Positions 13,827 to 22,385 of a stretch of DNA of 22,385 nucleotides are shown here, piece by piece. The DNA comes from a virus. Made by a program: the position numbers and the translations under genes. A model generated the notes under the pieces. It saw only the letters and a list, made by a program, of their open reading frames with translations, did no database searches and had not been told where the DNA came from. The stretch lies in the IMG/VR virus record IMGVR_UViG_3300008627_000066, positions 1 through 22,385 of that record; one strand, 5' to 3'. Position 1 is the stretch's first letter. Each line of letters opens with the position of its first letter.

Positions 13827-14441
13827 TCACAAGGCCGTTTCTATCTCAAGTAATCTCGTTCTTTCTTTATATGTACCCAGGTCATCATCCGGGCTGTCAT
13901 CTGGTTTGGGTTTCTCTTTTGACTTTTTGTATTCGTCAAACTCTGAGCGGAGGCTAACGTTATCATCCGGGTAAGCCGGATATGTTACCGGGGATAAATC
14001 CCGCATCATAGAGAATTTAGTTACCTCCCTTAATACGGTCCCATCCTCCTCCTCTCTCCAGTTTACCCCATCAGGAGCAACCCGGAAAGCAAACGAAGTG
14101 CCATCTATATCCCCCCGCTTTACTTCCTCCTGTATATCTCTGCCTACTGTGGTATTAGGTAAGTCAATTTCATACCCCAGGTTGCCCTCTTTGTCAAGTT
14201 TCATCCGTAGGGTTCCGCTTTTTGTCCGGCCTAATATCAGGTTTTCATCATGGTTTTTCAGCCCCCTGACATCATTATCCAGAATATTATCGAATACTCC
14301 GGGCATCAATACCTCCCGGAAGCCTCCCAGGTCAACACTTCTCACATTGACTTTTACCAGCCCGTTTAATTGGGTTGGCTTTCCTTCCTCTGCTCTCAAC
14401 TCTACCGTAGCTTCAAAAGACCTTTTTTCTATCTTACTCAT
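13827..14441 (-). CDS. Prohead protease, HK97 family
   Basis: A 204-aa protein that cleaves the capsid delta domain during head maturation. The core (about 5-165) includes FREVLMPGVFDNILDNDV, LKNHDENLILGRTKSGTLRM with the probable catalytic His64, DIDGTSFAFR with the probable catalytic Ser116, and a final DLSPVTYPAYPDDNVSLR. The remaining 40 residues are charged and rich in Lys, Pro and Asp, as in other members where the tail is lost or acts in assembly. It overlaps the portal gene by 8 bases. Catalytic assignments follow the family pattern of His and Ser; the third residue is probably a Glu near 139. Confidence 0.93.
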   Translation of the reverse strand: MSKIEKRSFEATVELRAEEGKPTQLNGLVKVNVRSVDLGGFREVLMPGVFDNILDNDVRGLKNHDENLILGRTKSGTLRMKLDKEGNLGYEIDLPNTTVGRDIQEEVKRGDIDGTSFAFRVAPDGVNWREEEDGTVLREVTKFSMMRDLSPVTYPAYPDDNVSLRSEFDEYKKSKEKPKPDDSPDDDLGTYKERTRLLEIETAL

Positions 14442-15687
14442 CTGTATTTATGTTTTGTTTTTGTACCTGTTCCAGCGGAGCCATGTTGACCATAACTAAA
14501 CGGCTGTCCCCTTCCGGCCCTATCTCGTTTTTATCTTCTAACTCCCGGACCTCGTTAATAGAGTAAACCCCTATCCGGGTCATTATCTCAAAGTATTCTG
14601 CTCTGCTCTTTGCATCCCCCCGGAGTAACCCGTTGAGGTTGCACTTAACAAACATCCTACCCCTTTCAGATTCCTTAAATAGCTTCCGGTTAAATTCCTG
14701 TTCAAACCTCATACACCAGGGCAACATAGTATAGGTCACAAATTCAATTCCCTGGTGTTCTATGTTATTGTTAGTTGACCTTTCAAGGTCTGCAATCATG
14801 TGAGGCGGGACCCTGAAAATACGGGCTATCTCGTTAATCTGAAACTTACGGCTTTGGATAAATTGGGCAGCTTCAGGAGGGATAGCTTTTTGAGCATACT
14901 TCATTCCCTCCTCTAATATTTGTACCCCGTGTCGGTTGCCCTGTCCTGTGGTTTTCTCCTTTAGTGATTCCGATAAGTGTTTATATGCTTTATCTGAAAG
15001 TTTGCCAGGGTGTTCAAATACCCCCGTTAAACTTGCTCCGTTCTTAAAGAACTCCGAACTCCAACGCTGCATAGCTAACCCCAGCCCTATACTGTCTGCT
15101 GCTATATCTATCGGGCTTTGTCCTATGATACCGTTATACGATAAGCCAGGTACATGAATCATATTAACGGCCTGTATATCCCTGTCTTTTGTCTGCCCGT
15201 CTGCCTTTTTAACTTCATAGCGAAGTCTGCCGTTCTTAAATAACTTCGGCTCAACCAATCCGGGATGTATAGGAATTAACTCTTTAGGTACATGGTCCCC
15301 GCCCCGTTTGATTTCTGCATAAGCATTACCCCAGCCCACAGCATGAGCCATAAGGGTTTCATAGAACGTAAAGGCAGACATTAAAGGGTTAGGTTCTGAA
15401 TGAACCAAGTCATATATTTTATGGTCCGTAGCTGGGAACTTCTTACCGTCCTCCAGTTTAATAACGTGCTTTGGGATAGAGGCCATTGTTTCCCCTAACA
15501 CCCGGATACAAGCGTAAACAGCAGAAAACTTTAGGGCCGTTTCCTGGTCCACTTGCTCCCCGGAAAGGGCTTTACTGCCTCCCCAGAAGCCTTCAGTTAA
15601 CCACTTGATGAAATTAGAAATAGAGGACTGTGGGTAGTCTGTCCTCTGTTCACCTTTTTGGCGGGTAATCTCAAACGATAATCGCAT
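14434..15687 (-). CDS. Portal protein, HK97 family
   Basis: A 417-aa portal protein, the dodecameric DNA gate of the head. Landmarks: ETALKFSAVYACIRVLGETM near the start, HVPKELIPIHPGLVEPKLF, MIHVPGLSYNGIIGQSPID, RWSSEFFKNGASLTGVFEHP, ILEEGMKYAQKAI, and EIARIFRVPPHMIADLERST. This order is diagnostic of the HK97 portal family. I start at the ATG at 15687-15685; a TTG at 15693 would add two residues. Upstream is a 90-base gap holding a palindrome, then the accessory cassette. Confidence 0.95.
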   Translation of the reverse strand: MRLSFEITRQKGEQRTDYPQSSISNFIKWLTEGFWGGSKALSGEQVDQETALKFSAVYACIRVLGETMASIPKHVIKLEDGKKFPATDHKIYDLVHSEPNPLMSAFTFYETLMAHAVGWGNAYAEIKRGGDHVPKELIPIHPGLVEPKLFKNGRLRYEVKKADGQTKDRDIQAVNMIHVPGLSYNGIIGQSPIDIAADSIGLGLAMQRWSSEFFKNGASLTGVFEHPGKLSDKAYKHLSESLKEKTTGQGNRHGVQILEEGMKYAQKAIPPEAAQFIQSRKFQINEIARIFRVPPHMIADLERSTNNNIEHQGIEFVTYTMLPWCMRFEQEFNRKLFKESERGRMFVKCNLNGLLRGDAKSRAEYFEIMTRIGVYSINEVRELEDKNEIGPEGDSRLVMVNMAPLEQVQKQNINTDE

Positions 15688-15732
15688 AGGCAATATAAAA
15701 GTGTAAAATTAATACCTCTATTGCCTGATACT

Positions 15733-15777: not shown

Positions 15778-16194
15778 TCAATGATTCTTATTTAGATGAG
15801 GGAAGGGAACATCTGGAATAGGGACATTCAGGAACTCGCATAACTCTTTCCAGCCGTCCCCATTTTCCCAACAAACTACAAGACAGTTAGGGAGTTTTGA
15901 GCATACGTTAATATGATGGGTGTATATATCCATCCACCAAGATTCTGGATACCACGACCCATACATATCCAATCGCTGTTTGTATATCCCTTGCCCCATT
16001 GTATGTTTTTTATCCCATTTTATTACACTTTGTAGCCAAGTTAATGAATCTTTACGGGTTGTAAGTATCAACTTCCCGTCCCACTTCGGAAGGAAATGTA
16101 CATAGTCCCCGACCTCCGCTTCAACCCCTAATATCTCAAGGGCTTTCTTTAGGGTAGTGGTTCCTGTTTTAGGTAGTCCTATTCCGTAAATCAT
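15778..16194 (-). CDS. Short sulfotransferase-family protein
   Basis: A 138-aa protein. The N-terminus IYGIGLPKTGTTTLKKALE is the phosphosulfate-binding loop (PKTGTTT, residues 8-14) of PAPS-dependent sulfotransferases; KLILTTRKDSLTWLQSVIKW (41-60) matches the 3'-phosphate site with Arg47 and Ser50; the end GWKELCEFLNVPIPD and FPHLNK are usual at the C-terminus of the sulfotransferase_17-like group. Most members are around 200 residues or more, so this one is compact, but both cofactor sites and the C-terminal element are present, so it is not obviously broken. It would sulfate a hydroxyl or amine of an unknown acceptor. Its ATG overlaps the PanD stop as ATGA, so the two are coupled. Confidence 0.78.
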   Translation of the reverse strand: MIYGIGLPKTGTTTLKKALEILGVEAEVGDYVHFLPKWDGKLILTTRKDSLTWLQSVIKWDKKHTMGQGIYKQRLDMYGSWYPESWWMDIYTHHINVCSKLPNCLVVCWENGDGWKELCEFLNVPIPDVPFPHLNKNH

Positions 16195-16532
16195 ACCGCT
16201 TTATTATTTTCGTCTGTGTGAATAATCATAGGAAGTGGTGACCAGCCAAATTGAGGTTCTATTAAAACAAACGCTAAAACGTGAATCTTATCCCCTTTTT
16301 TAAAGAATAAAGAAGCCCCACCGTTTAACTTTATTTCTCCTTTTTCACCAGGAATTACATAGGTCATTATTCTGGATGGGTGGTTTTTCCCATTTATATA
16401 TACTTGCTGATAGGGTGCTATCCCAGCCCGTCCCATTAAATCACGACAAATAGTAATAGACCCCTCATAATCTTTATTTGCTTCGGTTACTGTAACCTCT
16501 TGCAATTTGCCCTTTAATACGTTAATATACAT
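16191..16532 (-). CDS. panD: Aspartate 1-decarboxylase (PanD-like)
   Basis: A 113-aa protein that should convert L-aspartate to beta-alanine and CO2 using a pyruvoyl group made by self-cleavage. Starting at the ATG at 16532, numbering matches E. coli PanD: Lys9 in VLKGKL, the Gly24-Ser25 cleavage site in DYEGSITI, Arg54, Thr57 and Tyr58 in SRIMTY, and an NGGAS segment (Asn70) for the conserved Asn72. GDKIHVLAF follows. All residues required for processing and catalysis appear present. A longer start at 16577 exists but adds 15 residues absent from the family and overlaps the neighbour by 56 bases. It overlaps the PP-loop gene by 11 bases and the sulfotransferase gene by four. PanD normally serves pantothenate synthesis; use by a phage is unexpected. 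Confidence 0.88.
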   Translation of the reverse strand: MYINVLKGKLQEVTVTEANKDYEGSITICRDLMGRAGIAPYQQVYINGKNHPSRIMTYVIPGEKGEIKLNGGASLFFKKGDKIHVLAFVLIEPQFGWSPLPMIIHTDENNKAV

Positions 16533-17637
16533 TTTCGTAAACTGTTGCGAAGCCCCATAGTTTAGCTTCATATCCATATAAATTACTTGTAAAATCTAAT
16601 CCTTTAGGTATGTATTCTTTATAATCCTGGTATAGTTGTGACTGATAAAACCAGCCTTCGATATATTCTTTTCTTAACTCTGATATATTCCAACTATAAT
16701 CATGTTCCCCGTATTTGATATAAAAACAATCTACCCCGTGACTGTCAATAAAACTCCTCACCACCTCACCCCTGACACTATCCCTTTGCCCGTCCCAGCT
16801 CACATCAGGAGAGTTAAGCAGGGATACCCCTAAATATTGATACGAGAAAAAAGGCAGATACACTTCTTTGAACACCCTGCGATAATACCCCTCCCACTGG
16901 CCTTCGTCCGGGTATTGATTTAACAGTAGGTTGAGATTCTTATTTAGCGTCCTTTGTGGGTCATACTTTGGATTTGGTTTGGCTAAAAACTTAAACAACT
17001 CACCCCCGACCCCCGTTATTACATTCCACTCCTTTTCGTTTTCAATAATGTCACTCCAAAAATTCATCTGCTGGTTATAGTTCTGCCACCCGTTCAACGG
17101 CCTGTCTGATCTCCCTATGTCGTAATGATCTGCCTTTGTCCCTGTAAATACTGAGTATTGTGATTTCTCCCACCCTTGTTGTGTCATTATGTCCAGAAAC
17201 ATCGGACCTTCTGGCTGGTAACAGCGAAAGTGAACCCCGGACATATCATGCCCTTCATCCCTTAACTCCATTAATACAAGTGAGATTATACGGGAATCAA
17301 ACCCAGCGGAATGGAATACTATGTAGTTGCCCTTTCGGATAACTTTGTTAAAATATGATTTTAGAGCAGACCGGATGGCAGCTACCAGGTTTCTCATAGG
17401 GGGCTTTTTGATAGGTGTTAGCATCACCTTAGAATAAATACCCTTACTCATTACCTGTTGTGGGTGAGCAAACTCGACACCTAAAAAAGGAGTAGCATAC
17501 CAGGGAGGCACATATTCCGGGTTAAAAAAGTTAACATCAACTCCCAGGTGTTGGCCTTTGACTAACCGTATCAAGTCGTAATCGTAATTACCTAAAAATT
17601 GATATGTGCCCCTGTTAAACTGCATAAAGCTCCTCAT
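16522..17637 (-). CDS. PP-loop ATPase, asparagine-synthase-like
   Basis: A 371-aa protein with a pyrophosphate-binding loop FHSAGFDSRIISLVL (SxGxDS type, residues 110-115) as in the adenylating domain of asparagine synthases and other N-type ATP pyrophosphatases, and a later VITGVGGELFKFL segment (207-219) that resembles the G-G-x-E-L-F element of asparagine synthase. An N-terminal glutaminase with a catalytic Cys2 is absent, so ammonia or an amine rather than glutamine would be the nitrogen donor. Such enzymes adenylate a carboxylate and join it to an amine. It starts 38 bases after a tiny membrane gene and overlaps PanD by 11 bases. Substrate unknown; a link to beta-alanine is inference. 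Confidence 0.72.
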   Translation of the reverse strand: MRSFMQFNRGTYQFLGNYDYDLIRLVKGQHLGVDVNFFNPEYVPPWYATPFLGVEFAHPQQVMSKGIYSKVMLTPIKKPPMRNLVAAIRSALKSYFNKVIRKGNYIVFHSAGFDSRIISLVLMELRDEGHDMSGVHFRCYQPEGPMFLDIMTQQGWEKSQYSVFTGTKADHYDIGRSDRPLNGWQNYNQQMNFWSDIIENEKEWNVITGVGGELFKFLAKPNPKYDPQRTLNKNLNLLLNQYPDEGQWEGYYRRVFKEVYLPFFSYQYLGVSLLNSPDVSWDGQRDSVRGEVVRSFIDSHGVDCFYIKYGEHDYSWNISELRKEYIEGWFYQSQLYQDYKEYIPKGLDFTSNLYGYEAKLWGFATVYENVY

Positions 17638-17675: not shown

Positions 17676-17798
17676 TTATATTGTCTGTTCTCGTCTCTTA
17701 TCCTTTCTGTTTAAAATTACAAACAATACTAAATAACATCCTATCCCAAACGTGAGGATAGAACCGTAAGCGATTAAAATAGGTATAACTACGTTCAT
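17676..17798 (-). CDS. 40-aa single-span membrane peptide
   Basis: A short frame, ATG at 17798 to TAA at 17676, coding MNVVIPILIAYGSILTFGIG then CYLVLFVILN and a basic tail RKDKRREQTI. Residues 3-29 are hydrophobic, and the positive tail predicts N-out, C-in topology. Its ATG overlaps the TGA of the deacetylase gene as ATGA, the same junction used elsewhere in this operon, which supports it being real. It may anchor or assist the neighbouring surface-modification enzymes, or act on its own; function unknown. Confidence 0.6.
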   Translation of the reverse strand: MNVVIPILIAYGSILTFGIGCYLVLFVILNRKDKRREQTI

Positions 17799-18460
17799 AA
17801 ATCATAACTTTGCGGGTGCATCAACAGTTGATACCGTCCCTTGTTGTTAATCCATTTATCTAAAGTTTCAAAAGGGTCTTTATTCCATTTCCCGCCCCCG
17901 TCAGAAAGGCGATCATCCCGCTTGTCTTGCATAGCTTCAACCTCCAGCCCAAACCGTTCCATTTTCCAGGTCGGGCCTACATAGTCGGGCAACCTCCAAC
18001 AATGGAACCCAAATACATTATCATTAGCTACCCGTTTCTTTACTTGCCACGCCCCTCCATGTGAGGAGGTGCATCTGATCTTTAGCCCCATTCCCCTTAG
18101 TTCCCTTAAAGGTCTTTCAATCGCTTCCTTTATAGGTGTCCCGTTCTCATAATGGTCGCTTAAACAATCGTTATGCCACCCTATTTCATGCCCCCAACGG
18201 TCTTGTAATATTTTAAGAGCCATTACAAAGTATCTATTATTTGGTTGGAAATACGGTTTATCCGGGGGCCAGGTGTTAATAATAAAGATAGTAGATTTTA
18301 TCCCCATCTCATACTCAATCTTTGCAGCTTTCATTGCCCGGGTGAAATCCCCGTCAACATCGTGCCTCAATATTATCCCTTCGCCTGGGGTGTGGAAGTC
18401 TATAACATAGGGTTGTATAATCTCCAGAACCTTTATAAAGTTTTTCCGTGTGAATTTCAT
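17795..18460 (-). CDS. NodB-like polysaccharide deacetylase (CE4-like)
   Basis: A 221-aa protein with the carbohydrate-esterase-4 order: an Asp motif RHDVDGDF (33-38; Asp34 and Asp36), a metal-binding GHEIGWHND (His91 and His96 of the HxxxxH type), a TSSHGG segment (131-136), and a late LLMHPQ (212-217) for the catalytic His. No signal peptide, so it acts in the cytoplasm, probably on a nucleotide-linked or lipid-linked sugar rather than on the cell wall. It overlaps the glycosyltransferase gene as ATGA and the 40-aa gene the same way. Deacetylase activity is inferred from the motifs; some of these proteins have other substrates. Confidence 0.75.
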   Translation of the reverse strand: MKFTRKNFIKVLEIIQPYVIDFHTPGEGIILRHDVDGDFTRAMKAAKIEYEMGIKSTIFIINTWPPDKPYFQPNNRYFVMALKILQDRWGHEIGWHNDCLSDHYENGTPIKEAIERPLRELRGMGLKIRCTSSHGGAWQVKKRVANDNVFGFHCWRLPDYVGPTWKMERFGLEVEAMQDKRDDRLSDGGGKWNKDPFETLDKWINNKGRYQLLMHPQSYDL

Positions 18461-19182
18461 TTTAACAAGTTTTTCAATACATCAATGTCAACAGGCTTTG
18501 CCTTTTCAATAGATGACAAAAACTGGAAGTGGTTAATAGATACGTTGCTTTTGAACCCAGTTGTGAACGGCCTCCAGTTGGTATGAACCATAGTAGGCCG
18601 GATTCCGATTTTCATTAACCGATTCATTGAGGCCGTGTCCATCCCCCTATCCAGATTATAATGATACAAGGGCAGTTTGTATTTTTTTTGCAGCCGTATA
18701 ATAGCTTCAGTCTTTATTAACCGCATCACACCAACCGGGTATTTGTGATTATACAAGTCAAGGTAATATGCCTTCCCGCTTTCCTGATCCACAATATGAC
18801 AGGAATCAATACCTATCAGCTCTTTCCCCGCTTCAATGTGAGGTTTGTACTCTTTCCATATAGAAGCATCACAAAGGTCATCACTACCCATATTCATAAT
18901 GTAATCAGGTTTAAACATAGCAAGGGCAGTCTGTATGCCCGCATTAAGTTTAGCCCCTATCGGGAGGTTCTTATACTGGGTCACGGTAAAATCAAACTCA
19001 TGCCCAATATCAATTAACTCCTGTATGTCCCTATCCTCTGGAGAAACAACACATAAGTAATTCACCTCTACCCAGGCGGGTGATTCCTTTATGAACCGTT
19101 GCATAGACTTACAATGTCGCAACGTCACTTCCCACCTTCTCCACCAGGGGCAAACGATGGTAACTTTAACTTTTTTTCTCAT
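18457..19182 (-). CDS. Family 2-type (GT-A) glycosyltransferase
   Basis: A 241-aa protein starting with a Rossmann-like strand KVTIVCPWWRRWEVTLRHC, then the GAKLNAGIQTAL segment (77-88) and a metal-binding motif MNMGSDDL (96-103), the usual DxD place of GT-A fold enzymes. A region with KYPVGVMRLIKTEAI follows. No membrane segment is seen, so it is a soluble enzyme that transfers a sugar from a nucleotide-sugar donor; donor and acceptor are unknown. Its 5' end overlaps the small 76-aa gene by 17 bases and its TGA overlaps the deacetylase start. Confidence 0.8.
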   Translation of the reverse strand: MRKKVKVTIVCPWWRRWEVTLRHCKSMQRFIKESPAWVEVNYLCVVSPEDRDIQELIDIGHEFDFTVTQYKNLPIGAKLNAGIQTALAMFKPDYIMNMGSDDLCDASIWKEYKPHIEAGKELIGIDSCHIVDQESGKAYYLDLYNHKYPVGVMRLIKTEAIIRLQKKYKLPLYHYNLDRGMDTASMNRLMKIGIRPTMVHTNWRPFTTGFKSNVSINHFQFLSSIEKAKPVDIDVLKNLLK

Positions 19183-19396
19183 CCCTTTTTTTCTTTAAAT
19201 AAATATCCCTGGTTTTGCGGAAAGAGTTGAAACTTTTATACCTCCGTTCCCCAAAGATGAACTTATACTGCCTTTCAACGGCTTCATAAGCATCTTCCTG
19301 TTTTTTGAAATCGCAAAGCATTTCCCAGAAAGCTTCAATAAAGCCTTCTATCTTAGTGAGCCTTGCGTATTGCGGTTCTAATTTTTGTTTGGTCAT
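19166..19396 (-). CDS. Small unknown protein next to terminase
   Basis: A 76-aa charged protein, with a helical first part (IEGFIEAFWEMLCDFKKQED) and a second part rich in Arg, Lys and aromatic residues (YKFIFGERRYKSFNSFRKTR) ending in a Lys-rich tail. The compact helical form with a basic second half could bind nucleic acid, but I see no clear helix-turn-helix. It lies 9 bases after the large terminase and overlaps the glycosyltransferase gene by 17 bases. Function unknown. Confidence 0.65.
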   Translation of the reverse strand: MTKQKLEPQYARLTKIEGFIEAFWEMLCDFKKQEDAYEAVERQYKFIFGERRYKSFNSFRKTRDIYLKKKRDEKKS

Positions 19397-19405
19397 ATCG
19401 TTATT

Positions 19406-20965
19406 TTATAATGTTTTAACTCCCCCATCATCATATACCGAAGTATCCCCATCGAAATGTGTCATAAACTCCCCGACTGCCATAACCAGCCCCACCATGC
19501 CGTCAACCTTTTCGGTACTCTTTGACTTGTCTATCTTGTTATCACCCGCTGCATTTTCGACTATCATAACATTGGAACACATCCACCTTAACACAGGGTT
19601 GCCTAAATGGTTTACCTGTGAGTTATATACCATACCCTCTAACTCCTTTGTTGGAGCAGACATCGAAGCGAAGCCTTGACCGAAAGGAGTACATTCAAAC
19701 CCATCCCCCTGTAAGTTAATCACAAGCTGTGAAGCGTTCCACCTATCGTATGCAATAGTCCGTATCTCATATATATCATTCTGTTCATTGATAAACTTCC
19801 GGATGTAATCATAGTCCGTTACGTTGCCGGGTGTTTCGGTTATAAAGCCCTCCCTTATCCATTGATCATAATTAACACCGTCTTTTTGTGTTCGTTCCCT
19901 TGCCATTAGGCCCGGTACAAAGAAGTGAGAAATGACTATAAAAGTATCCTCATAGGGAAACAGCATCATAAAGGCGCATACATCCCTGCGAGAAGCAAGG
20001 TCAAGACCGCATACACAAGCCTTGCCTTTCAGCTTTTCAAGGTCAAACTCCACTACCCCCCGCATCCAGACTTCATCACTTATCCAACGGGTTTCTGCTG
20101 AAGTCCATTGGTTCAACTGCAACCGCCTGAAGGTGTTCTCATATGAAGGGGTGTTTTTTGCCCGTGTCGCTTCCTCAACGACATACTCTTTTTTCAATGA
20201 AATCTGATAACAGGGGTTAGCCCGTTTCCATACCTCCTCATCAAACACATCATCCTTTTCATCACTCTCATAGATAACAGGCAGAAAGGTATCGTCTTTT
20301 ATTATCCCGTCCCGGACCTTACAAGCGTATTCATATTGTTCAAAGCATATTGTTTCACGGTCAAAACCAGCAGTAGTAAAAGCAAAGGTAAGGGGTTGCC
20401 TCCGGGAACCGGTGGAGGTTGTCAACACATCCCATAGCTCCCGGTTAGGCTGGGTGTGAACTTCATCAAAGATAATCCCGTGAGAGTTCTTGCCATGTTG
20501 CCGGGGGGCATCACTTGACAGGACCCGGTAGAACGACCCGTTAGAGGGGTAGGTAATAGTACTTACAAACGTCCTTAGCTCCTCCGTTAACCGGGGGCTT
20601 TGTAGTATCATCTGTTTGGCTACATCATGGATAATACCCGCCTGTAACCTGTCCGAAGCAGCAGAGAATATCTCTGCCCCTGGCTCACCATCAGCACACA
20701 AAAGATACAAGGCAAGTGGGCTGCCTAACGTGCTTTTGCCGTTCTTGCGGGGGACAAAAATAAACACCCTCCTGTATCTCCGTAACCCTGTTTCTTTATC
20801 CTTCCATCCAAAAGCGGGTATAACAATTTCCTCCTTTTGCCATTCAGCAAGTATCAACGGCTTACCACCCCACTCACCTTTTACATGGGTGCAATATTTC
20901 TCAATCCACTTAACTACCTTCTCCCCGGCAGGGCGGTCCAAATAATATTTATCTGTTTCAGTCAT
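19406..20965 (-). CDS. terL: Terminase large subunit
   Basis: A 519-aa ATPase-nuclease that packages phage DNA into the prohead. Walker A is VPRKNGKSTL (71-80), Walker B is GIIFDEVH (163-170) with the catalytic Glu168, a coupling/motif III segment lies in TFAFTTAG (193-200), and the nuclease domain starts with VCGLDLASRRDVCAF (Asp322). The C-terminal part has AYDRWNASQLVINLQGDG, common in this terminase group. The length fits full-length enzymes of the HK97-like type. Start ATG at 20965 overlaps the small-subunit stop by one base (TAATG). Nuclease metal residues beyond Asp322 are not all mapped. Confidence 0.95.
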   Translation of the reverse strand: MTETDKYYLDRPAGEKVVKWIEKYCTHVKGEWGGKPLILAEWQKEEIVIPAFGWKDKETGLRRYRRVFIFVPRKNGKSTLGSPLALYLLCADGEPGAEIFSAASDRLQAGIIHDVAKQMILQSPRLTEELRTFVSTITYPSNGSFYRVLSSDAPRQHGKNSHGIIFDEVHTQPNRELWDVLTTSTGSRRQPLTFAFTTAGFDRETICFEQYEYACKVRDGIIKDDTFLPVIYESDEKDDVFDEEVWKRANPCYQISLKKEYVVEEATRAKNTPSYENTFRRLQLNQWTSAETRWISDEVWMRGVVEFDLEKLKGKACVCGLDLASRRDVCAFMMLFPYEDTFIVISHFFVPGLMARERTQKDGVNYDQWIREGFITETPGNVTDYDYIRKFINEQNDIYEIRTIAYDRWNASQLVINLQGDGFECTPFGQGFASMSAPTKELEGMVYNSQVNHLGNPVLRWMCSNVMIVENAAGDNKIDKSKSTEKVDGMVGLVMAVGEFMTHFDGDTSVYDDGGVKTL

Positions 20966-21429: not shown

Positions 21430-21677
21430 TAACAAATTAAACAAGCTGCCCGTTCTGACAACTCTATGAATATTAGATTTTCATTTTCATAGTCAACTTT
21501 GATCTGTTGGGCCAACTCATTATACCCGTTCCCATTTTGATACTCCTCTGAATTAATGACTATTATTTTTTTGTCCCCTGGAAATTGTTTGCTGATCTCC
21601 TCCATTTTTTTACCCATCTCTTTCTTAGGTGTCACCACCCAAAATACCCTGTTACTTTCATCAATGAAATTCCACAT
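21429..21677 (-). CDS. Unknown 82-aa protein before terminase
   Basis: An 82-aa protein beginning MWNFIDESNRVFWVVTPKKE. It alternates short strands and helices: VFWVVTP, KKMEEISKQFPGDKKIIVIN, ELAQQIKVDYENENLIFIEL, ending in ERAACLIC. This alpha/beta look fits a small domain of unknown function; no catalytic motif is evident. Its 5' end overlaps the methyltransferase 3' end by 17 bases and its TAA overlaps the small-terminase start, so it lies inside the coupled chain. Confidence 0.6.
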   Translation of the reverse strand: MWNFIDESNRVFWVVTPKKEMGKKMEEISKQFPGDKKIIVINSEEYQNGNGYNELAQQIKVDYENENLIFIELSERAACLIC

Positions 21678-22385
21678 AATCTATCGTTTTAAATAATTCA
21701 TACGCTACCTGGGGAACTATTGCGTTCCCTAATCCTTTAAGGCAGTCCACCCTGTCGGGTAACCCATTATCTTTTCTACAAACTGCGGATTTAATATCAT
21801 ATTCTCCTGTAAATTCAACCCTTCCCCTATGTATGTTTCTAAGTTGTGCCTGTGACCCGATTCCCTTATATGTGCATCCATCATCATAGCCCTGGGGGTT
21901 GGGAGCATCTTTAGGTGTTCTGTTTTCACTATATTTGTTAGTTTCGCACCCCATTTCCGCCCCTTCGAATCTACTTCCCGATATTTCCCTTTCGAAAATT
22001 CCAGTTTTTTTGTACTGTTTTGAATTGTTTCTCCTAGAACGGTCGGTGTAGGCAACAATCCAGACTCTATCCCTTCTATGCCACGCTCCGACGGCGCAAG
22101 CTGGAATAACAAAAACCTCGACCTGATACCCTTCATTTTCCAGGTCAAAGAGTATCCTTTCAAGTGTTCTGCCATTTTCCATTGAGAGGAGGCCAGCAAC
22201 GTTTTCGCCAACGACAAAGGACGGTTTAGCCTCGCTGATAACTCTAAGCATCTCAGGCCAGAGGTAACGGTCGTCTGCTTTGCCTTGTCGCTTTCCTGCT
22301 TGACTGAAGGGTTGACAAGGGAATCCACCGGAAATAACGTTAACTCGCCCCCGCCATTCTGCTCCGTTGAAGTCTTTAATATCTT
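21661..22385 (-). CDS. dcm: C5-cytosine DNA methyltransferase, 5' end beyond the window
   Basis: The frame is open from the right edge, with 241 codons visible. Upstream of the first ATG it continues as VISGGFPCQPFSQAGKR, with the catalytic Cys of motif IV (codon 22317-22315), so the true start is outside the window. The ENV motif VI appears in FVVGENVAGLLSM, motif VIII in RRDRVWIVAY, and motifs IX/X in DRVDCLKGLGNAIVPQVAYE. Motif I and the SAM-binding loop must lie to the right. The target-recognition stretch between VIII and X is short (about 85 residues). It transfers a methyl group to cytosine, which may protect phage DNA from host restriction. Another long frame overlaps it on the same strand. 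Confidence 0.93.
   Translation of the reverse strand, partial: DIKDFNGAEWRGRVNVISGGFPCQPFSQAGKRQGKADDRYLWPEMLRVISEAKPSFVVGENVAGLLSMENGRTLERILFDLENEGYQVEVFVIPACAVGAWHRRDRVWIVAYTDRSRRNNSKQYKKTGIFEREISGSRFEGAEMGCETNKYSENRTPKDAPNPQGYDDGCTYKGIGSQAQLRNIHRGRVEFTGEYDIKSAVCRKDNGLPDRVDCLKGLGNAIVPQVAYELFKTIDYVEFH
21729..22385 (-). other. Second long frame overlapping the methyltransferase gene
   Basis: On the same strand, shifted by one base from the methyltransferase frame, about 218 codons are open from the right window edge to TAG at 21731-21729. One possible start is a GTG at 22328-22326 (VDSLVNPSVKQ). The frame contains LPTP twice (GLLPTPTVLGE and LKMLPTPRAM), SLTWKMKGIRSRFLLFQLAP and a C-terminal LNPQFVEKIMGYPTGWTALK. 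Patterns of this kind (LPTP repeats, LNPxxVExxMGxPxGWT) recur, as far as I recall, in other phage methyltransferase regions. It may be a true overlapping gene, a frameshift product, or an artefact of conserved bases in the main frame. Confidence 0.4.

Follow-up and report, generated by a model that had tools for sequence, protein, structure and literature searches.

The window analysed here is a 22,385-nucleotide stretch of a viral record of IMG/VR (IMGVR_UViG_3300008627_000066). Between the genes of the terminase large subunit (TerL) and the portal protein lies an island that includes panD, the gene of a PanD-type pyruvoyl-dependent decarboxylase (Table 1), as the preliminary description of this DNA had placed it. 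The panD open reading frame extends on the minus strand from an ATG at 16532 to a TGA at 16191. Position 16532 is taken as the start, despite an in-frame ATG at 16577, because the homology and the orthologue of the related phage L028 begin there. The gene overlaps the upstream gene of a PP-loop-like protein by 11 nt (ATGTATATTAA) and the downstream sulfotransferase gene by 4 nt (ATGA), so the overlaps behind the coupling previously proposed for both sides of panD are real.

Table 1 Features of the window and of related loci
Feature	Position	Strand	Basis and relatives
C-5 cytosine DNA methyltransferase fragment at the window edge, upstream of TerS	21661-22383
Terminase large subunit, upstream border of the island	19406..20965	-	PF20441/PF03354
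76-aa conserved island protein	19166..19396	-	homologues in L032, L034, L037, L039, L043
GT2-like glycosyltransferase (weak), NMGSDDL motif	18457..19182	-	PF00535; homologues in L032, L034, L037, L039 islands
LRHDVD-motif protein, polysaccharide-deacetylase-like	17795..18460	-	motif only; homologues in L032, L034, L039, TerL-portal interval
371-aa PP-loop-like protein, motifs FHSAGFDSRI and TGVGGELF	16522..17637	-	motifs only
PanD-type pyruvoyl-dependent decarboxylase, PanD2 lineage, 113 aa	16191..16532	-	PF02261, fold match, tree; predicted cleavage between G24 and S25
Short sulfotransferase (Sulfotransfer_4), 138 aa, intact 5' GLPKTGTTT motif	15778..16194	-	PF17784, E 6e-20; counterparts L003 4664-5080, L002 918-1334
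Portal protein, downstream border of the island	14434..15693	-	PF04860, E 1.6e-110
561-aa secreted-looking tail-end protein	1181-2866
PALP - TseH-like/DUF6695 - PanD2 operon	L183 9274-11679; L182 9358-11798; L195-L213
GNAT-like acyltransferase	L028 779-1384; L032 5918-6655; L034 6219-6878; L037 4402-4992; L039 3887-4471
Second PP-loop family (DUF6395, QueC-like)	L032 3145-4275; L028 1727-2851
ABC-ATPase(-GNAT), PanD, CoA-transferase III-like module beside terminase genes	L019 3329-6094; L125 273-2970

The window PanD matches positions 1-114 of the 115 positions of the PF02261 profile (E 3.3e-30, 104.7 bits, cut-off 25), and its best match to PanD sequences of the PDB has an E-value of 1e-12. 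Its AlphaFold model (mean pLDDT 87.7) has the double-psi barrel fold of solved PanD precursors, and the top PDB matches in a fold search are all PanD precursors, with TM values of 0.90-0.92 (2c45, 1ppy). The window PanD resembles the bacterial PanDs (PF02261; TIGR00223; PDB 1ppy, 2c45, 1vc3) in fold, length, and the Gly-Ser processing site. The alignment bears out the catalytic residues listed in the preliminary description and adds Y22 to them: K9, Y22, G24, S25, R54, T57, and Y58 are kept, and N70 is the equivalent of E. coli N72, because the preceding hairpin is shorter by two residues. In contrast to bacterial PanDs, the window protein has this shortened 57-72 hairpin, a cysteine at position 29, and a truncated C-terminus, and is encoded in a phage operon in which no pantothenate genes were recognised. 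We consider it very likely that the window encodes a functional pyruvoyl-dependent decarboxylase. Judging from sequence and model, the protein would act on L-aspartate and would undergo self-cleavage; its putative product, beta-alanine, is named after the family as a whole and not after the PanD2 lineage, to which it belongs. The shortened loop and the Asp29Cys replacement could alter its specificity.

Two separate IMG/VR contigs (L002 and L003) are 98.1-98.5% identical to the window over 7.6-10.2 kb and have the same gene arrangement. A distinct phage (L028, IMGVR_UViG_3300033064_001358), the portal and capsid proteins of which are 76% and 74% identical to those of the window, has the gene order PP-loop-like, small ORF, PanD, sulfotransferase, portal. 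Amino-acid identity between the two phages is 75% for the PP-loop-like protein, 69% for PanD, and 72% for the sulfotransferase. The comparison of their panD genes gives a dN/dS of 0.18 at a dS of ~1.4, and the PanDs of the window and L003 differ by zero amino-acid changes. Since the block is kept in L002, L003, and the ~70%-identical L028 at this dN/dS, the window panD is neither a chimera nor debris. The joining of the contig with host DNA, which the preliminary description had named as grounds for dismissing the gene, is excluded by the arrangement shared among the three relatives.

The proteins encoded next to PanD are assigned with varying certainty. PF00535 was matched by three of five members of the GT2-like family, with a best E-value of 0.0012, and the LRHDVD-motif protein has no Pfam match. 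The 371-aa PP-loop-like protein is a possible ATP-pyrophosphatase or amide ligase of the AsnB type, judged by its motifs. It has no Pfam match, its hhalign alignment to AsnB covers the P-loop only (probability 6%), a fold search with its low-confidence model (pLDDT 43) gave no significant match, and no relatives of its gene were found in the bacterial genome scan.

Many other HK97-type prophages have adjacent TerL and portal genes. In contigs with related terminases (L032-L039), the TerL-portal interval holds overlapping sets of genes, including those of GT2-like, deacetylase-like, GNAT-like, and 76-aa proteins, but no PanD. Therefore, we regard PanD, the PP-loop-like protein, and the sulfotransferase as forming a sub-module within a tailoring island of exchangeable content. 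A second PP-loop family and a GNAT-like acyltransferase family, FemX-like by eye and absent from the window, recur in the islands of related phages. The variable TerL-portal content of related phages and a slightly lower GC content (0.40-0.41 versus ~0.44) would fit passenger cargo in a recombination hotspot that brings the phage no benefit. Such a cargo is highly improbable given the low dN/dS relative to L028, the intact catalytic residues, and the identity of the neighbouring genes in both lineages.

To place the window PanD among bacterial ones, we compared it with those of Bacteroidota. Four of the 395 sampled genomes of this phylum carry a PanD 47-50% identical to that of the window, whereas canonical Bacteroidota copies are at most ~44% identical to it; a canonical PanD is also present in each of these four first-found genomes. 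We define the paralogue clade as PanD2 (loci L141-L144, L186, L195-L213, and L216). In a maximum-likelihood tree of 38 rows, in which the tested clade consisted of nine PanD2 sequences, the window, and L028, the two phage sequences are placed inside the PanD2 clade with support of 100/99. Grouping of the window PanD with canonical Bacteroidota PanD was rejected (p-AU 0.019). As the tree shows, the phage gene appears to have been acquired from the Bacteroidota PanD2 lineage and not from a housekeeping panD.

In two of the four first-found genomes, PanD2 follows genes of a PALP enzyme and a TseH-like/DUF6695 protein; in the remaining two it adjoins, by eye, a TerC-like gene. Within the order of one carrier, 44 of 301 genomes contain PanD2, and the PALP - TseH/DUF6695 - PanD2 operon is present at all 19 loci that were read. 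This context is missing around the phage PanD and is not a strict criterion of PanD2, because the bacterial loci L184 and L185 lack it too. The window PanD shares with the bacterial PanD2 proteins stretches of the SRIMTYVLPG, NGGA, and KGDKIHILSF type. In contrast to the window protein, they retain the 13-residue loop and Asp29, and in one order of Bacteroidota they are encoded in the PALP - TseH/DUF6695 - PanD2 operon, whereas the window panD lies with the PP-loop-like and sulfotransferase genes.

The origin of the gene bears on its use. The derivation of the enzyme from a side-branch of bacterial PanDs, and not from the housekeeping copy for vitamin B5, suggests a use of beta-alanine or a related amine outside coenzyme A synthesis, and we think it probable that the window PanD is not dedicated to coenzyme A. 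As an auxiliary metabolic gene, it would raise beta-alanine, and through pantothenate coenzyme A, during infection. The provision of beta-alanine for pantothenate is the canonical function of PanD, the catalytic residues of which the window protein keeps; nevertheless, we find this role improbable. The window PanD scores 80.9 bits against TIGR00223, the NCBI pantothenate equivalog with a cut-off of 106, its lineage of origin was found beside canonical PanD in four of the four PanD2 genomes checked for both, and its neighbours are of a tailoring type. No panB, panC, or coaA was recognised among the window proteins scanned, in agreement with the earlier remark that no other pantothenate gene lies nearby. 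The preliminary proposal that beta-alanine serves something beyond pantothenate thus gains independent support from the PanD2 lineage, whereas its option of a boost to host coenzyme A becomes less likely. Conjugation to DNA has no support in the window phage, and the idea of a glycan, virion, or surface conjugate draws on neighbouring genes, several of them weakly identified.

The chief competing explanation is a change of substrate, given the CysK-type enzyme that accompanies PanD2 in bacteria. The window enzyme might decarboxylate cysteate, cysteine sulfinate, or another beta-substituted alanine to a different amine, for example taurine or hypotaurine; the CysK-type PALP enzyme at the start of the bacterial operon could make such a beta-substituted alanine. 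The sulfotransferase gene directly after the phage panD would fit this, as would the loop shortening and Asp29Cys close to the active-site strands. However, the residues by which known PanDs handle aspartate (K9, R54, T57, Y58, and the N72 equivalent) have all been kept, and a PALP gene was not found in the phage window. We regard a shifted substrate as unlikely.

PanD also occurs in other phages, which the preliminary description had missed. In Rhodococcus phage Jace (gp87) and the environmental contigs L125-L127, PanD lies near terminase genes, as in the window, between genes of an ABC-ATPase, with GNAT, and a CoA-transferase III-like protein. A ParB-like gene is also present in Jace. The Jace-type module is possibly a DNA- or small-molecule-modification system; a link to coenzyme A may hold in Jace and L125, because a CoA-transferase-like gene neighbours PanD there. 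In Achromobacter phage 2-1 and contig L128, PanD is located beside RNaseH/DNA polymerase genes and forms a very long branch. The activity of this PanD is doubtful, because histidines occupy the Arg54 and N72-equivalent positions. Both types are placed elsewhere in the tree than the window PanD. The constancy of PanD neighbours, raised in the preliminary description, holds for the block shared with L002, L003, and L028 but does not extend to the Jace and Achromobacter types. Matches in supposed phages of Listeria, Staphylococcus, Enterococcus, Escherichia, Salmonella, and Acinetobacter were set aside as contaminating bacterial DNA or as bacterial contigs under a wrong label, and those of the first viral scan (L004-L018) were chance matches inside phage head proteins. 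No clear viral PanD was found in BFVD, and no report of a phage PanD or a viral aspartate decarboxylase in the literature searched.

The phage PanDs share a short active-site hairpin, of 11-12 residues in all five, versus 13 in every one of the 71 sequences that are non-phage or contaminant-like. Cys29 replaces aspartate in four of the five, including the Achromobacter type, whereas the 71 compared non-phage sequences have Asp29. These features are a lead and not a proof of convergent adaptation, given the non-random choice of the compared sequences, the long branches, and the small number of phage lineages (three). A single phage-specific clade was tested because the loop deletion and Cys29 are shared; it was weakly rejected (p-AU 0.0225, with long branches), and convergence is therefore our working reading. 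It is a speculative and rather doubtful extension that unrelated phages independently recruited PanDs and reshaped them alike, with a short hairpin and usually Cys29, so that modification pathways of DNA, glycans, or virions are fed with beta-alanine or a similar amine; a beta-alanine conjugate would then await discovery on phage particles or polymers.

The host of the window phage is probably a member of Bacteroidota, as indicated by the relation to PanD2 and by signal peptides of a Bacteroidota style in several tail-end proteins. Against this, the terminase finds its best matches among bacterial genomes (53%) in Burkholderiales. The C-terminus of a 561-aa tail-end protein resembles, by eye, the C-type-lectin variable domains of targets of diversity-generating retroelements; a template repeat for this gene was searched for in the window and not found. 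A fragment of a C-5 cytosine DNA methyltransferase gene is situated at the window edge.

We hypothesize that PanD supplies beta-alanine, or another PanD product, late in infection for the tailoring of a glycan, the virion, or a surface, and give this reading somewhat less than an even chance. Self-cleavage of the proenzyme at the Gly24-Ser25 bond would yield the pyruvoyl enzyme, which would convert L-aspartate into beta-alanine. From the position of panD in the small TerL-portal tailoring island, and from this only, we infer late co-expression; the common function is equally conjectural. The PP-loop-like enzyme would activate a carboxylate and join it to the free amine of beta-alanine, and the resulting amide would be carried by a sugar or small ligand. 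The glycosyltransferase and sulfotransferase would complete the amide product, and the virion or cell surface would be decorated late in infection. The neighbouring genes, several of them weakly identified, weakly suggest such amide attachment and sulfation on a virion or cell-surface glycan. Among the papers searched, none described a phage glycan with beta-alanine. The nearest published precedent is the island of the Corndog-group mycobacteriophages, in which an O-methyltransferase and glycosyltransferases encoded between portal and protease were proposed to modify the capsid (PMC4351075). As in the window, tailoring-enzyme genes (gp35-38 of Corndog) lie inside the head operon; unlike in the window, they occupy the portal-protease interval, with no PanD, PP-loop, or sulfotransferase reported (PMC4351075).

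The central segment of the sulfotransferase is allelically variable: the protein has 81% amino-acid identity to its counterparts in L002 and L003, against a background of 98-99.9% identity and with most flanking genes 98-100% identical, and the dS of the gene relative to L003 is 0.50. This variability may reflect allelic exchange or a diversifying acceptor specificity. It would also fit a change of the host outer polysaccharide, of a lysogenic or superinfection type, that blocks other phages in place of virion decoration, and the GT2-like, deacetylase-like, and sulfotransferase genes are of the kinds that alter surface polysaccharides. However, the genes belong to a packaging and head operon with overlapping starts, which suggests late lytic expression, and the 22-kb fragment, possibly an incomplete record, has no recognised integrase. 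We consider this exclusion role improbable, and tentatively retain the late tailoring of the virion or surface.

This work also brought to light a conserved operon of Bacteroidota that contains a PanD paralogue and is apparently uncharacterised. For phage genes of this kind, the automatic label "panD, CoA auxiliary metabolic gene" could be mistaken. If the proposed role is true, phages would have recruited a vitamin-pathway enzyme for a non-vitamin purpose, and the island would point to a so far undescribed decoration, with an amine, on phage particles or host polymers.
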